From the NCBI GenBank assembly GCA_030691265.1, contig JAUYET010000059.1:1-33847 (forward strand): a stretch of DNA of 33,847 nucleotides, in the 5' to 3' direction. Made by a program: the position numbers and the translations under genes. Source of the DNA: Pseudomonadota bacterium (GTDB lineage: Bacteria; Pseudomonadota; Gammaproteobacteria; Burkholderiales; Thiobacillaceae). Each line of letters begins with the position of its first letter. Position 1 is the first letter of the stretch. This document shows positions 4,543-32,508 of this stretch, piece after piece. A model generated the notes under the pieces. It saw only the letters and a program-made list of their open reading frames with translations. It was not told the origin of the DNA and did not search any database.

Positions 4543-4621
4543 GTGTAGGTTGGGCAAAGCGCAGCGTGCACAACATTTCACGCGCCGATGTTGGGCACGC
4601 TGCGCTTTGCCCAACCTACAC
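4543..4621. repeat. GTAGGTTGGGCAAAGCG palindromic repeat, copy 1
   Basis: Long inverted repeat: GTGTAGGTTGGGCAAAGCG at the left end and its complement ending CCAACCTACAC at the right. It lies within the broken glycosyltransferase gene. Further copies are at 6135-6207, 9218-9329 and 17547-17619. Confidence 0.9.
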
Positions 4622-6094: not shown

Positions 6095-6270
6095 GCTTAT
6101 CCGGTTAACACAGACACCCACTACCGGTAGTGACGTAGGTTGGGCAAAGCGAAGCGTGCCCAACGAACCGCCGCGATGTTGGGCACGCTTCGCTTTGCCC
6201 AACCTACGGCGCCCTGCCGCGAAATCACGAGCCACTACATCTAGTGGTTGTCTGTGACAACCGGATAAGC
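6095..6270. repeat. Nested palindromic element, copy A (MITE-like outer arms around a GTAGGTTGGG core)
   Basis: Outer arms of about 37 bp: the left starts CTTATCCGGTT and ends GTAGTG (6096-6132); the right (6233-6269) is its imperfect complement ending AACCGGATAAG. Between them sits a 73-bp core at 6135-6207, itself a perfect-ended palindrome (GTAGGTTGGGCAAAGCG). This is the main content of the 450-bp gap between the MNT gene and the HAD gene. Confidence 0.88.
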
Positions 6271-9177: not shown

Positions 9178-9352
9178 GCTTATCGGGTTAACACACATAC
9201 CCACTACCGGTAGTGACGTAGGTTGGGCAAAGCGAAGCGTGCCCAACGAACCGGCGCGACGTTGGGCACGCATCGCTTTGCCCAACGAACCGGCGCGACG
9301 TTGGGCACGCTTCGCTTTGCCCAACCTACGTTACTGCGACAACCGGATAAGC
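9178..9352. repeat. Nested palindromic element, copy B
   Basis: Same orientation and layout as 6095-6270. The left arm GCTTATCGGGTTAAC...GTAGTG is followed by an enlarged core (9218-9329) holding one extra half unit (CCCAACGAACCGGCGCGACG occurs twice). The right arm is shortened to a stretch ending CAACCGGATAAGC. It fills most of the 340-bp gap between btaA and the antiporter gene, and may act as a barrier between the two transcription units. Confidence 0.88.
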
Positions 9353-17546: not shown

Positions 17547-17619
17547 GTAGGTTGGGCAAAGCGCAGCGTGCCCAACATGGCGACGGGTTGTTGGGCACGC
17601 TGCGCTTTGCCCAACCTAC
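17547..17619. repeat. GTAGGTTGGGCAAAGCG palindromic repeat, copy 4
   Basis: 73 bp, from GTAGGTTGGGCAAAGCGCAG to its complement ending CCCAACCTAC. Its right end supplies the TAG stop codon of the mrpE reading frame. Confidence 0.92.
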
Positions 17620-18128: not shown

Positions 18129-18938
18129 TCAGGCCGCCGTATCGGGTTCGTCCAGCCGCGCCAGAATCCAGCGGCGGGCGGCATCGCGCAGCCGCAATGC
18201 GGCTTGCCAGTCTTCCCCTTGCGCCGTTAGCGGTGTGCCGATCCGCACTTGCAGTGTGCTGTAGCACGGCCAAAAGCTTTCACCGCGCAGCAGGGCGCGG
18301 GTGCCGAGCAGGGCGACCGGCGCCACCGGCGCGCCGGCGCGGGCGGCGGCGACGAACGCCCCCATCCGGAACGGCAGCAGTCCCGGCTGGCTCTGGAAGG
18401 TGCCTTCGGGAAAGAAGATCAGTGCATCGCCGGTGCGCGCGCGCGCCTCCAGGCCGCGCGTGTCTTCCGCGCCGCGCGCGCTGTCGAAGCGTTCGACGAA
18501 GGCGGCATCGAGCCGGCGCAGCGGAATGCCGGCGAAGGGTTTCTGCAACAACTCCTGCTTGGCCACATAGGCGAAGCGGGGCGGCAGCACGGCGGTGAGG
18601 ATCAGCGCATCCAGATAGCTGGCGTGATTGGCCACCAGGATCAGCGGAGTCGTTGGCGGCTCTGCCGCCTTACGAATCCGGCGTGCCAAGAACTGGTGCA
18701 GCGGAGTCGTTGGCGGCTCTGCCGCCTTACGAATCCGGCGTGCCAAGAACTGGTGCAGCGGAGTCGTTGTCGCTTTAGCGACATTACGAATCCGGCGTAC
18801 CCCTTGCGGGTGCAGCGGCCCGGCGCCGGCGAGGTGGTGCAAGCCTTCCACGCGCGGCCACAGGCCGGTGAGCCGCAAGGCCAGGCGCGCGCCCGCGCGG
18901 GCGATGCGGCGGCGCAGCGCGAGCGACGGGGCCAGCAC
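18129..18938 (-). CDS. PlsC-like lysophospholipid acyltransferase with three in-frame repeat units
   Basis: 269 residues from a GTG two codons after the ligase stop. The acyltransferase motifs are NHASYLD (H-x4-D), FVERFDSARG (second block) and FFPEGTFQSQ (E-G-T substrate site). Just before the H-x4-D motif, 57 residues are a tandem of three 19-residue units (LHQFLARRIRKAAEPPTTP and relatives) encoded by repeats; joining the sequence around them gives a normal VEGLHHLAGAGP-LILVANHAS. In the same frame upstream of the GTG lies a hydrophobic stretch (FWSLWAWTVFASAVSVFW), so the protein was probably the C-terminal part of a ligase-acyltransferase fusion. It likely acylates lysophospholipid at the inner membrane. 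Confidence 0.85.
   Translation of the reverse strand: MLAPSLALRRRIARAGARLALRLTGLWPRVEGLHHLAGAGPLHPQGVRRIRNVAKATTTPLHQFLARRIRKAAEPPTTPLHQFLARRIRKAAEPPTTPLILVANHASYLDALILTAVLPPRFAYVAKQELLQKPFAGIPLRRLDAAFVERFDSARGAEDTRGLEARARTGDALIFFPEGTFQSQPGLLPFRMGAFVAAARAGAPVAPVALLGTRALLRGESFWPCYSTLQVRIGTPLTAQGEDWQAALRLRDAARRWILARLDEPDTAA
18644..18814. repeat. Three 57-bp tandem units in the acyltransferase gene
   Basis: Units start at 18644, 18701 and 18758. The first two are identical; the third diverges, yet keeps both of its mini-hairpins by matched changes. Hairpin 1 is GGCGGC-TCT-GCCGCC in units 1 and 2 and TGTCGC-TTTA-GCGACA in unit 3. Hairpin 2 is CCA-agaac-TGG in units 1 and 2 and CCC-cttgc-GGG in unit 3. 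Confidence 0.93.
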
Positions 18939-18940
18939 GA

Positions 18941-21127
<2,187 letters not shown>

Positions 21128-21132
21128 GCGCG

Positions 21133-22461
21133 CTATCGTAATCCTGGGATCCGATCCAGGCGTTCGGCGCGCAAAGCGGCGCGGCGGCCGCGTCCGGCGC
21201 GCACGCCGGCAAGCAGGATCAGCCCGATGATGAAATAAGCGCCGGTCAGCAGCAGCGCGCGGCGGTGGTCGCCGCCGCTGAACCAGGTGGTGAGGCCGTA
21301 GGTGAGCGGCCCGGCGATGGCGGCGAGCTTCACCGACAATCCCCAGAAGCCGTAGAACTCCGCCAGTCGGGCAGGCGGCGCCAGCACCCCCACCAGCGCG
21401 CGGCCGGCGGATTGCGCCGCGCCCAGGCAGAAACCGGCCAGGTTCGCCGCCGCCCAGAACAAGGCCGGCCCTTCTGGCAACCCCGGCGCCGCCCAGGCCA
21501 GGAGGATAGTCACGATCCAGCCGAGCAAAATCAGCGCGATGGTGCGGACATGGCCGATGCGGTCCTGCACATGGCCGAACAGGAAGGCGCCGATAGCCGC
21601 CGTGAGGTTGACGACGAAAATCAGCAGCAAGGCCTGCCAGGTGGTGAAGCCCATCGCCTGAGTGGCATAGACGGCGGCCAGGGTGATGACGGTCTGGATG
21701 CCGGCCTGATAAAACACGCTGCACAGCAGGAAACGGCGCAGATCGGGGAATAAACGCAAATGCAGATGCAAGCGGTTTAGGGTCAACCGCGGCCGCGCCC
21801 GTGCCGGCCCCGCGCCTTCGGCCGCGCGCGGCGCGGCGCGCTCGCGCAGCAACAGGAAGGTCGGCAGGCTGGCCAGCGCGAAGATGGCGGCGGTGATCAG
21901 CATGGTCACCGGCACGTATTGCGCGGCGGTCTGGCCCTGTGCCTCGGCCCAGGTGACATAGAGCAGACACAGGCCCAGCGTAGTCAGTCCGCCCAGATAA
22001 CCGAGACTCCAGCCCCAGCCGGACACCCGGCCCAGGGCGCGGGACTGGGCTATTTCCGGCAGAAACGCCGCGATCAGGTTCTCGCCGCTGCCGTAAAAGA
22101 AGTTGGCGGCGATCACGCAGACGACGGCGAACCACAGCGTTTCCGTCTGCGCGAAATAAAGCAGGCCGGTGAACAGCACGCAGCCCGCAGTGGTGATTGC
22201 GAGCAGTTTTTTCTTCGCCGCGCGACGGTCGGCCCAGGCGCCGATCAGCGGCGCGGTCAATACGATCAGCGCATAGGACACCGCCAGCGCGGCGGTCCAG
22301 GCGAAGGTGGCCCAGGCCGCATTGCCCGCCACCACGGCGACGAAATAGGCGTTGAACAGCGCGGTGATGACCACGGTGGTAAAGCCGGAATTGGCGAAGT
22401 CGAACATCGCCCAGCCCCACAGTTCGCGGGGGCGGACATCGGCGCGCAGAACCGGCTTCAC
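21133..22461 (-). CDS. MFS transporter, UMF1/Atg22-like
   Basis: 442 residues beginning at GTG (22461), which overlaps the upstream stop as GTGA. About 12 helices. The start RELWGWAMFDFANSGFTTVV and GSGENLIAAFLPEIA are typical of the UMF1 family of the major facilitator superfamily. Loop 2-3 GAWADRRAAKKK is the MFS signature. In a locus with an acyl-AMP ligase and PlsC, a lipid or lysolipid flippase role analogous to LplT is attractive but unproven. No frameshift. Confidence 0.88.
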   Translation of the reverse strand: MKPVLRADVRPRELWGWAMFDFANSGFTTVVITALFNAYFVAVVAGNAAWATFAWTAALAVSYALIVLTAPLIGAWADRRAAKKKLLAITTAGCVLFTGLLYFAQTETLWFAVVCVIAANFFYGSGENLIAAFLPEIAQSRALGRVSGWGWSLGYLGGLTTLGLCLLYVTWAEAQGQTAAQYVPVTMLITAAIFALASLPTFLLLRERAAPRAAEGAGPARARPRLTLNRLHLHLRLFPDLRRFLLCSVFYQAGIQTVITLAAVYATQAMGFTTWQALLLIFVVNLTAAIGAFLFGHVQDRIGHVRTIALILLGWIVTILLAWAAPGLPEGPALFWAAANLAGFCLGAAQSAGRALVGVLAPPARLAEFYGFWGLSVKLAAIAGPLTYGLTTWFSGGDHRRALLLTGAYFIIGLILLAGVRAGRGRRAALRAERLDRIPGLR

Positions 22462-23291
22462 GGAGTTTGCCCACCGCCGGGGCGCCCCAAGGCGGGCATA
22501 GCGCCCCCTCGGGGGGCGGCGGAGCGTGGGGGTTGCCGCCGGCGCAGATGCCGCGCGACCACAAACACAGCCAGCGCGGCGACGACGTGCTTCAGGGTGT
22601 GGCCGCTGACCAGGCCGCCGGTCAGGCCGAAAACCGCGTGATCGCTCAGGTCGAACAGCAGGGCGAGCAGATACAGCCCGATGACGATCAGGATGTCGCG
22701 CCCGCCGCTGTAGCGCGGCGGATACAGCCAGAGCAGCAGCGGAATCAGCAGCATCGGGTAGGCCTGCATCAGCAGGTAGGGGCGCAAGTCGCCGGCGCCG
22801 CGCGCCTCGCTCCAGCCCCAGTAAAAGACGCTGGAGAGGCCGGCGATCAGCAGCAGCGGCAGCAGGATGAGTCCGGCTTTGAGGCCGACGCGCTCGCACA
22901 GAATCGCGCCCAGCCAGGCCATGAACGCCAGCGCGATCGCCGCCCTGTCCCACAGCAGGCTGGCGTTGTCGGGGGCGAGGTGGTAATAGCCGGAGCCAAA
23001 ACCGATCAGGATGGCGGCGAAAAAGAACAGCGCATAAGGCCACGCCTCGCGCGCCTCGACAAACGCGCGCCGCCCGGCCGGGCTGTACAGGAAGCGCAGG
23101 CCGATCAGTCCGGCCAGCACGAACAGGGCGTTGGAGGCGGTATCCAGGCAATTGGGTAGGCCGAAACAGGCGCGTTGATCGGCGAAATCGTGATACTGCG
23201 GCGGTTGCGCGATGGGCGGCAGCGCGAGCGCGGCCAGGATCAGCCCCAGGCCCGGCAGCAGCAGGATGAGCCACTTGACGCCCGGCTTCAT
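22458..23291 (-). CDS. Ceramidase-like CREST-family membrane protein
   Basis: 277 residues, seven hydrophobic helices. The start MKPGVKWLILLL is fixed by an ATGA overlap with the lipoprotein gene upstream. Characteristic pieces are YHDFADQRACFGLPNCLDT (N-terminal family block), GFGSGYYHLAPDNASLLWDR (Ser, His and Asp of the first CREST metal motif) and DHAVFGLTGGLVSGHTLKH (two His near the end). These give the putative zinc site of alkaline ceramidase-type hydrolases. The substrate is a lipid amide or ester by family. The last 25 residues (PRSAAPRGGAMPALGRPGGG) are encoded by a palindromic repeat, so the original C-terminus was replaced. Confidence 0.85.
   Translation of the reverse strand: MKPGVKWLILLLPGLGLILAALALPPIAQPPQYHDFADQRACFGLPNCLDTASNALFVLAGLIGLRFLYSPAGRRAFVEAREAWPYALFFFAAILIGFGSGYYHLAPDNASLLWDRAAIALAFMAWLGAILCERVGLKAGLILLPLLLIAGLSSVFYWGWSEARGAGDLRPYLLMQAYPMLLIPLLLWLYPPRYSGGRDILIVIGLYLLALLFDLSDHAVFGLTGGLVSGHTLKHVVAALAVFVVARHLRRRQPPRSAAPRGGAMPALGRPGGGQTP
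22485..22537. repeat. CGCCCCAAGGCGGG / CCCCCTCGGGGGG repeat at the 3' end of the ceramidase gene
   Basis: Shares GGGCGCCCCAAGGCGGG and GCGCCCCCTCGGGGGGC, plus GAGCGTGGGGG, with a second copy at 31983-32050. It forms the in-frame 3' end of the ceramidase-like gene. Confidence 0.85.
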
Positions 23292-31452: not shown

Positions 31453-32508
31453 TTAGCCGCCGCGCACCATCGTCATCACCCGGCCCATGTCGAGCGTTTC
31501 GGCCTGCTCGCGGATTTGCGGCAGATAGTGCGTCTGCAACTGCTTGGCAGGCCCAAGCAGGTTCTGGAAGGTGTCTTTCAGCGCCGCCGTGCTCATCACC
31601 CGCCCATCGGCGTAATAGCGTTTGGCAACCTGCCTCAGCGCATAGGTGGTGGCGAAGGAGAAGGCCATGCCGGTGGCCGCCCCCCCCACGTTACCCAAGG
31701 TCTTGCCCGCCATCTTGCCGAGCAGCCCGCCCAAGAGCTTGCGGCCGATTTGTTCGAGGTATTGCGAGGTCAGGCCGACCCCGGCGGCGACGATGAATTC
31801 CTTGATGTGGCCCTGGTCGAGCTCCACTCCGTGCGCGTGCCCGATGCCGTAGACCATCTTGATCTGCAACGGAATGATCGCCATCGACGCCCACGACTGC
31901 GGCAGCAGTTCCAGCGCGCCGTTCATCAGGCTGTAGTTGAGGATGGACTGGTCCAGTTCCTCTGCGGACACATTCACGCCGTCGGGCCGCCCCAAGGCGG
32001 GAATTTCGCCCCCTCGGGGGGCAGCGAACGGGAGTGAGCGTGGGGGCTGTTCATTCGCCCGCGCCGCCACCACCGGGCCGGCGGCTGTTACTACCGCAGC
32101 GGGTGCGGCAGCCTCGGAAAGATCGACGATGGCGTCAGCTTCGCCTTCGATGACATCCGCCTGCGCGGCATCGAGATCGAGCAAGGTTTTCAACTCGTTC
32201 AGGACACGGCGCTCCGCCTCGCTCGGGCGACCGTCGGCATTGCAGACGCAGTCTGCCATTTCATACGCCAACTGGCGTTCGCCGGGCTCACTCAGCGCGG
32301 CGGCGGCCGCTTCCAGCGTCACCCGCTTGAGCAGCACGTCCTGATAGAGCCGGGCCAGATCGGGCGCGCCGGCTTCACCGGAGAGCGGGGTGGCAAGTGA
32401 CTCGGCGATGCGGCGGATCTCTTCGCGCTCGCGGTCGTCCTTGACGCCGTCGGCGAAGGCCGCATACAGGGCGATGGTGAGGATGGCGCGTTGCTGTTCA
32501 GGGTTCAT
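31453..32508 (-). CDS. TerB-like plus DUF697 protein with in-frame repeat
   Basis: 351 residues. The N-terminal 130 residues form a TerB-type helical domain (ALYAAFADGVKDDREREEI and VCNADGRPSEAERRVLNEL, two acidic EF-like loops). The C-terminal part, about 190-351, is a DUF697 membrane-associated domain (QIKMVYGIGHAHGVELD, AAGVGLTSQYLEQIGRK, RQVAKRYYADG). The linker (PRSLPFAAPRGGEIPALGR) is coded by a repeat also present in the ceramidase gene. GGAG seven bases before the ATG. TerB-like domains bind divalent metal and occur with TerC, whose gene lies upstream. Confidence 0.87.
   Translation of the reverse strand: MNPEQQRAILTIALYAAFADGVKDDREREEIRRIAESLATPLSGEAGAPDLARLYQDVLLKRVTLEAAAAALSEPGERQLAYEMADCVCNADGRPSEAERRVLNELKTLLDLDAAQADVIEGEADAIVDLSEAAAPAAVVTAAGPVVAARANEQPPRSLPFAAPRGGEIPALGRPDGVNVSAEELDQSILNYSLMNGALELLPQSWASMAIIPLQIKMVYGIGHAHGVELDQGHIKEFIVAAGVGLTSQYLEQIGRKLLGGLLGKMAGKTLGNVGGAATGMAFSFATTYALRQVAKRYYADGRVMSTAALKDTFQNLLGPAKQLQTHYLPQIREQAETLDMGRVMTMVRGG
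31983..32050. repeat. CGCCCCAAGGCGGG / CCCCCTCGGGGGG repeat inside the TerB-DUF697 gene
   Basis: Second copy of the repeat at 22485-22537, here with the extra GCAGCGAACGGGAGTGAGCG segment. Read in frame without a stop, it forms the linker between the two domains. Confidence 0.88.

Follow-up and report, generated by a model that had tools for sequence, protein, structure and literature searches.

Three 57-bp units within a plsC-type gene are copies of a small folding mobile repeat dispersed through genomes of sulfur bacteria

The plsC locus and its three-unit array

The window, by which we mean the whole 33,847-nucleotide stretch of DNA that was analyzed, carries an open reading frame (ORF) of 269 amino acids with a PlsC domain (Table 1). 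Positions 18643-18813 form a head-to-tail array of three 57-bp units, in frame within this ORF, and Tandem Repeats Finder reports a repeat at 18642-18798 (period 57, 2.8 copies, 93% matches). The initial annotation had already described three tandem units of 19 residues each; it placed them at 18644-18814, one base out of register, and each unit does supply 19 codons on the minus strand.

Table 1. Coordinates of the window features discussed in the text
Feature	Position	Strand	Description
Two intact, uninterrupted GTTGGGC..GCCCAAC REP hairpins	17551..17615		Family is a target of the element elsewhere
PlsC-type acyltransferase ORF with 57-aa insert (residues 43-99)	18129..18938	-	Pfam PF01553, E 1.2e-24, residues 95-210; open frame continues upstream
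Element unit 1 (57 bp)	18643..18699	+	Minus strand reads 19 residues; covariance-model match 67.2 bits; fold z -3.67
Element unit 2, same sequence as unit 1	18700..18756	+	Covariance-model match 68.1 bits
Element unit 3, other subtype of the same element	18757..18813	+	Model match 83.1 bits; fold z -4.37
AMP-binding and acyl-carrier ORF	18941..22564	-	One fused frame with the PlsC domain in G027; different frame in the window

The insert immediately precedes ILVANHASYLD, which holds the catalytic H-x4-D motif and beside which it had been placed; an alignment of the ORF to PDB 5kym begins at residue 94. The 57 residues are absent from the four closest PlsC homologues, those of G027 (74% identity) and of G052, G046 and G041 (48-50%), where the preceding residues pass straight into the strand before H-x4-D. 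The plsC units therefore read as an in-frame insertion, one that, judged by sequence comparison, adjoins the catalytic motif and lies outside the motif itself.

In G027, the PlsC domain is the terminal part of one long AMP-binding/carrier/PlsC frame. The split frame of the window may represent a separate or recoded gene, or else damage or a sequence error. If plsC is decaying, it says less about tolerance of the insert; the other host genes described below are independent of the plsC case. A transposase-like ORF with an integrase core domain lies at 370-1443 of the window.

Abundance and distribution of the element

The three units are copies of a small, folding mobile repeat, mostly 54-57 bp in length, that is dispersed through genomes of sulfur bacteria. 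The window's own genome (a 2.02 Mb assembly, 58% complete) holds at least 43 element matches by BLAST, with the best 40 of 72 candidates scored, and 76 by covariance-model search; a 17-base core pattern, allowing up to three mismatches, occurs 121 times versus 10 for its reversed control. Local slippage, with no mobile element behind the 57-bp tandem repeat of plsC, would suit the identity of units 1 and 2, but it is refuted by the 76 dispersed copies and by unit 3, which is a different subtype, and we give it next to no chance.

Of the 61 related genomes, 26 have element matches, divided among the genus (19 of 23 genomes), the rest of the family (5 of 14) and the order (2 of 24). Copy numbers per relative are lower bounds, the best 91 candidates having been scored in each; G011 has the most matches, G021 carries 27 copies, and G001, G003, G005 and G012, all of the same genus, returned zero in the model search of relatives. 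A core-pattern scan of named genomes found 26 stretches, distributed among Thiobacillus (7), Hydrogenophilales (6), records named Pseudomonadota bacterium (9) and others (4). The array had no match in plasmid and phage records at E 0.001, the core pattern had no exact match in viral contigs, and an Rfam search of the window gave no match at the gathering score. A published description of the element, its 14-base core included, was not found in the literature collection searched.

Ten records, including T. denitrificans RG (two units) and G027 (outside the window's genus), carry one to seven units directly before an ABC1/UbiB-type kinase gene, apparently an old site (L142:2592-2741, L140:575-971 and eight more); in L142, the downstream gene matches Pfam ABC1. 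The unit end before this gene reads GGGTACACT, which by eye resembles a -10 box and could contribute to a promoter.

Fold and covariation of the element

The element strand features an imperfect hairpin that has an RCAG foot, the stem CGGA.TCGT..ACGA.TCCG with a G/A mismatch inside it, and an apical stem that varies; 3' of it is a second small hairpin, GTRCCC..GGGTRC. When the element strand is folded as single-stranded DNA, every unit shows both of the mini-hairpins originally reported, at z -3.67 (first two units, which are identical) and -4.37 (unit 3), and none of 200 shuffles folds equally well. Unit 3 differs from units 1 and 2, as noticed from the start, yet it is the same element in a different subtype (83.1 bits). 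The compensatory differences are also real: hairpin 2 reads GTGCCA..TGGTGC in unit 1 versus GTACCC..GGGTGC in unit 3, such that A-T becomes C-G and a G-T wobble becomes A-T, and hairpin 1 has a new apical stem, GGCGGC/GCCGCC in unit 1 versus GTCGC/GCGAC in unit 3.

Both hairpins covary in larger sets of copies, whether from the own genome, from other genomes or from within genes only. Pair counts use distinct rows, and the own-copy alignment takes in 48 of the 76 own copies. Across 43 distinct own copies, 95.3% of cells are paired, with 9 pairs and 38 cells changed on both sides; on none of the five measures does any of 500 shuffles attain the observed value. When the own-set structure is applied to 57 other-genome copies, 96.3% of cells are paired (9 pairs, 34 cells); no shuffle of 500 scores as high, and further pair types are reached in 11. 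The 14 distinct intragenic copies, a set that overlaps the own-copy set, are paired in 91.5% of cells, with 8 pairs (2/500) and 21 cells (0/500), and further pair types are reached in 78 of 500 shuffles. The copies are related to each other, such that the shuffles overstate significance and their counts are not probabilities. Sliding the stem partners lowers paired cells to 28-48% in all three sets.

In the second hairpin of the 57 other-genome copies, T-G and G-T are the commonest pair types at two positions (32/57 and 29/57). These pairs become A-C mismatches on the complement, and the structure therefore belongs to one strand. A strand-specific hairpin built on an imperfect palindrome is a feature of GTAG-superfamily REPs that the element shares. 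Its foot tetranucleotide is GCAG in 30, ACAG in 12 and another sequence in 6 of the 48 own copies, and GCAG in 27, ACAG in 14 and another in 16 of the 57 other-genome copies; GTAG occurs in neither set.

What do the compensatory changes in plsC mean? Unit 3 had been taken to indicate selection on nucleic-acid folding within the plsC frame. Selection on folding is borne out insofar as the stems covary widely; that unit 3 reveals it within plsC itself is not supported. Outside plsC, five copies share the apical stem of unit 1, GGCGGCTCTGCCGCC, and two share the apical stem of unit 3; the second hairpins of units 1 and 3 occur in four and three copies, respectively, elsewhere in the own genome. 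Because stems of both units occur outside plsC, the compensatory differences need not have arisen there, and the plsC array can be assembled, stem by stem, from pre-existing element subtypes. A 28-base string from the first hairpin of unit 1 occurs only in plsC.

One alternative is selection at the level of the host, which would preserve the hairpins as RNA structure in the plsC mRNA, with the insert regulating or stabilizing the transcript. Such selection would be consistent with the pairing that intragenic copies retain (91.5% of cells) and with RNA folds of the plsC sense strand that beat most shuffles (z -2.35, 6/200 as good; z -3.35, 0/200). The plsC mRNA strand nonetheless folds worse than the opposite strand, stems of both subtypes are present outside the gene, and the ten strongly supported host genes read the element both ways: sense in four (murD, murG, a DUF3683 protein and a comF-like gene) and antisense in six (plsC, cobS, mpl, murB, rhuM and a threonine-phosphate-decarboxylase-like gene). 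Since the G-T wobbles suit one strand only and genes read both orientations, mRNA folding is an unlikely target, and we consider this alternative very improbable. We infer that selection on the mobile DNA strand accounts best for the pairing.

Empty sites, bursts and nesting in REP hairpins

The element has exact empty sites. The orthologous REP in L144 reads GTAGGTTGGGCAAAGCGAAGCG and is intact across the junction GTTGGGC^AAAGCG, where G006 (L241) has exactly 57 extra bases after GGGC. Likewise, murD of G007 reads GAGACCTTGGGC (GAGAC^CTTGGGC), and the own genome reads GAGAC, 57 bp, CTTGGGC.

Copies also arise in bursts. We examined 18 top-scoring (not randomly sampled) copies from each of two relatives; 14 of those in G011 and 12 of those in G006 have the same sequence across the element. 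Those of the G006 burst follow GGTTGGGC of one REP family (GTTGGGC type) and those of the G011 burst follow ATCGCGGGC of another (GCGGGC type), with the GCGGGC/GCCCGC hairpin hosting 15 of the 20 non-tandem G011 copies listed. Hairpins with a stem of at least 6 contain 15/18 of the top-scoring copies in G006 and 16/18 in G011. In the own genome, copies lie in GTTGGGC-family REPs, in GGCGGAA..TTCCGCC hairpins, in one GGCGGCA..TGCCGCC hairpin and in what looks by eye like a GCCCCC..GGGGGC repeat. Hairpin targeting there is only moderately enriched: a stem of at least 8 spans the site for 8/70 copies versus 100/4000 random positions, and a stem of at least 6 for 20/70 versus 567/4000, with the three plsC copies and three near a contig end omitted.

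The burst copies of a given genome mostly share one REP family, one position and one orientation (G006, G011), as they would if the element did not move by itself and REPs with the element in their loop were spread as composites by the REP's RAYT. Against composite spread, the REP at the L144 empty site is already intact, identical elements lie among differing REP loops and spacers, and no REP surrounds the own-genome copies in murD and plsC. We judge it improbable.

Of 69 own copies read at a fixed offset, 54 have a purine both before CAGCGG and after GGGT, and in 44 of these the two purines are the same (Fisher p 1.8e-4); the murD insertion is an exception. As to the two hallmarks of a MITE, a target duplication of one purine is possible, and terminal inverted repeats are not seen in the element consensus. 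We had considered a two-base GC or AC target duplication and dropped it after the murD and L144/G006 empty sites.

The window itself holds eight intact GTTGGGC..GCCCAAC REP hairpins, partly as a 39-bp tandem array (4590-4615, 6139-6203, 9222-9325 and 17551-17615). An uninterrupted GCCCCC..GGGGGC repeat lies at 32008-32047; by eye, the same kind hosts the element in murB, mpl and the decarboxylase-like gene.

In-frame copies within conserved genes

We scanned with Pfam 46 ORFs, out of 120 that span a copy, that have at least 45 residues on either side of it. These scans place the element in plsC (three copies), cobS, murD, murG, murB, mpl and rhuM, some of which encode cell-wall enzymes, and further in genes for a DUF3683/FAD protein, a comF-like product and a threonine-phosphate-decarboxylase-like protein. 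Weaker cases are a TPR protein in L203, L007, and a lipoyl protein in L026, the last being weaker because its right flank does not look coding. By codon usage of the immediate flanks, eight copies are in frame on one strand (murD, cobS, comF-like, L203, murG, L007, DUF3683 and rhuM), and the L008 and C26:20380 copies are flanked by one coding strand but in different frames on either side. The plsC, mpl, murB, decarboxylase-like and lipoyl copies miss the threshold; their immediate flanks are mostly other units or, by eye, REP sequence.

Solved structures also outline the inserts. MurD residues 15-160 and 185-480 align to structure chain residues 10-152 and 152-447, breaking at the insert, and MurG residues 10-164 and 195-395 align to 2-156 and 156-354. 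For MurB, Mpl and the threonine-phosphate-decarboxylase-like protein, whose inserts are longer and by eye include the GCCCCC..GGGGGC repeat, the alignments flank the insert on both sides only. All 15 intragenic copies are 54 or 57 bp long, whereas 27 of the 61 others are divisible by three (Fisher p 5.6e-5), a comparison that is partly by construction given that an unbroken frame was the way intragenic copies were found; 32 of the 61 others are 55 or 56 bp.

As is typical of RPEs, the element lies in frame in conserved genes whose relatives lack it. Among 19 same-genus murD genes in an alignment of 22 loci, from which four more distant hits and second pieces were omitted, two contain the element, two another insert and 15 none. 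The own genome has one unit; G013 has two tandem units by eye, of which the model reports one. In G005 (L308) and G011 (L300), a REP-like insert occupies the codon at which the own genome has the element. We had initially regarded it as an unrelated repeat, and the alignment instead shows likeness to the GCCCCC..GGGGGC repeat. A degenerate match (19.5 bits, E 0.006) is only suggestive of an element nested in the G011 insert. The murD codon may be a tolerant site that was hit more than once, or the insert may have been gained and lost. On contig C26 of the own genome (L204 and L004), several copies cluster around murB, murG and murD, and one of this cluster is flanked by coding sequence in two different frames.

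Search for a mobilizing enzyme

The own genome has six Y1_Tnp hits, five of them above the cut-off, and none emerges as the element's own transposase. The search for nearby copies covered 23 of the 35 Y1 loci in the genus (further Y1 hits have no locus); one element match each occurs in three of the 23. The matches in L074 and L267 lie nested within a different REP, and the one in L261 is about 1.1 kb from the Y1 gene. The RAYT-like gene at L074:1318-1944, which is below the Pfam cut-off, sits amid GGCGGAA..TTCCGCC REPs, and the element interrupts one of these. A search of G021, with its 27 copies, gave no Y1_Tnp hit, and Y1_Tnp hits did turn up in G003, G005 and G012, all without element copies. 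The Y1 distribution and the 23 Y1 loci searched thus do not support a RAYT as the element's own transposase.

IS110-type transposases, the type to which ISPpu9 belongs, were likewise rejected as the mover: they were found in 3 of 9 genomes searched and do not track the element, and the Transposase_20 domain was not found in G011. Across these searches, no transposase dedicated to the element was found.

The element could also be a true GTAG-superfamily REP that bears GCAG or ACAG as its tag and is mobilized by a RAYT of its own. The imperfect hairpin with its inner mismatch and four-base foot would fit, E. coli REPs likewise have a bulge required for activity (PMC8266576), and Y1 genes occur in the six genomes with the most copies (with G000, G006, G007, G008, G009 or G027, the last outside the Y1 search, close in number). 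Standing against it are the tag, with RCAG in 42 and GTAG in none of the 48 own copies, the three matches at 23 Y1 loci, two of them nested in another REP, and a unit that has a second hairpin and forms head-to-tail arrays. Overall, we consider membership in this superfamily unlikely.

Proposed mode of spread

The array very probably consists of three copies of a non-autonomous mobile palindromic element. Its copies are dispersed, spread in bursts of identical sequence, covary in their stems, have exact empty sites, and enter both REP loops and genes. We propose that the element moves as folded single-stranded DNA and that a Y1/HUH enzyme of the RAYT or IS200/IS605 kind may mobilize it in trans. 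A non-autonomous element of the IS200/IS605 type would depend on a cognate Y1 transposase acting on both end hairpins, and Y1 genes are present in the own genome and in several relatives. Copies that do not fold would not spread, and covariation would arise in this way. Within genes, the survivors would be those with lengths divisible by three, an open frame and a tolerant site, and tandem units could form by duplication or by repeated insertion beside an existing copy. The plsC insert would then be a tolerated passenger peptide.

A bolder version, which we advance tentatively as having a little less than an even chance, is that the element is a hyperparasitic, minimal two-hairpin mobile DNA that enters the loops of several unrelated REP families as single-stranded DNA targets. 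Its 54- and 57-bp subtypes would have become compatible with coding and so reside within many conserved, even essential, proteins of a single genome (plsC, murB, murD, murG, mpl and cobS), in some cases joined to a REP as a composite.

The element is abundant, has exact empty sites and comes with natural compensatory mutants, and it offers a case for asking how REP-like hairpins move. The same case bears on why hairpins enter other hairpins and on how proteins gain insertions of 18-57 residues with function kept.

Comparison with known systems

We class the element with intragenic REP/RPE-like elements and not as a GTAG or CGTC superfamily REP, since the tests for these tags and for RAYT flanks failed as far as they were run. 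GTAG- and CGTC-tagged REPs are short imperfect hairpins in high copy. Some are intragenic, including clusters in Thauera and R. conorii that encode 43-82 residues; a few families are located inside other palindromes, and the CGTC type is apparently without a dedicated transposase (PMC3733652). The element is likewise a short imperfect hairpin in high copy, with intragenic examples and some copies within other palindromes, but it differs in its mostly RCAG foot, head-to-tail arrays, second hairpin and entry into several REP families. By eye, the CGTC (TGTC, CCTC) tag with an AT-first stem of 8-9 bp, as described in PMC3733652, is absent from the element consensus.

The substrates of TnpAREP enzymes must be strand-specific hairpins that carry a tetranucleotide at the foot and, in the E. 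coli case, a bulge in the stem (PMC8266576). The element resembles them in form, given its RCAG foot and G/A mismatch. By analogy, the element appears to work like a REP, and within genes like an RPE; we treat the TnpAREP resemblance as a lead rather than as membership.

RPEs are small palindromic repeats that lie in frame in conserved genes, and a guanylate kinase that contains one is both translated and active, its affinity for substrate being altered (PMC2229807). Compared by description, the element shares this in-frame placement. The RPEs of that study measure 105-146 bp and have terminal inverted repeats (PMC2229807), whereas the element is mostly 54-57 bp, has two unlike hairpins, occurs in Thiobacillus-type hosts and nests in REP loops.

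Insertion sequences of the ISPpu9 kind also insert into REPs (PMC8450116), but they encode a transposase, and the IS110-type Transposase_20 domain was not found in G011. Similarly, Correia elements and enterobacterial RU are small mobile sequences with open frames fused in genes, and they mostly have terminal inverted repeats and TA ends (PMC2229807). The element is alike in being small, mobile and fused in genes; it differs in that neither terminal inverted repeats nor TA ends are seen in its consensus. Finally, in-frame palindromes have been described in Rickettsia, Thauera and others (PMC3733652) and in Neisseria and enterobacteria (PMC2229807), and the copies reported here add Thiobacillus-type bacteria to these hosts.
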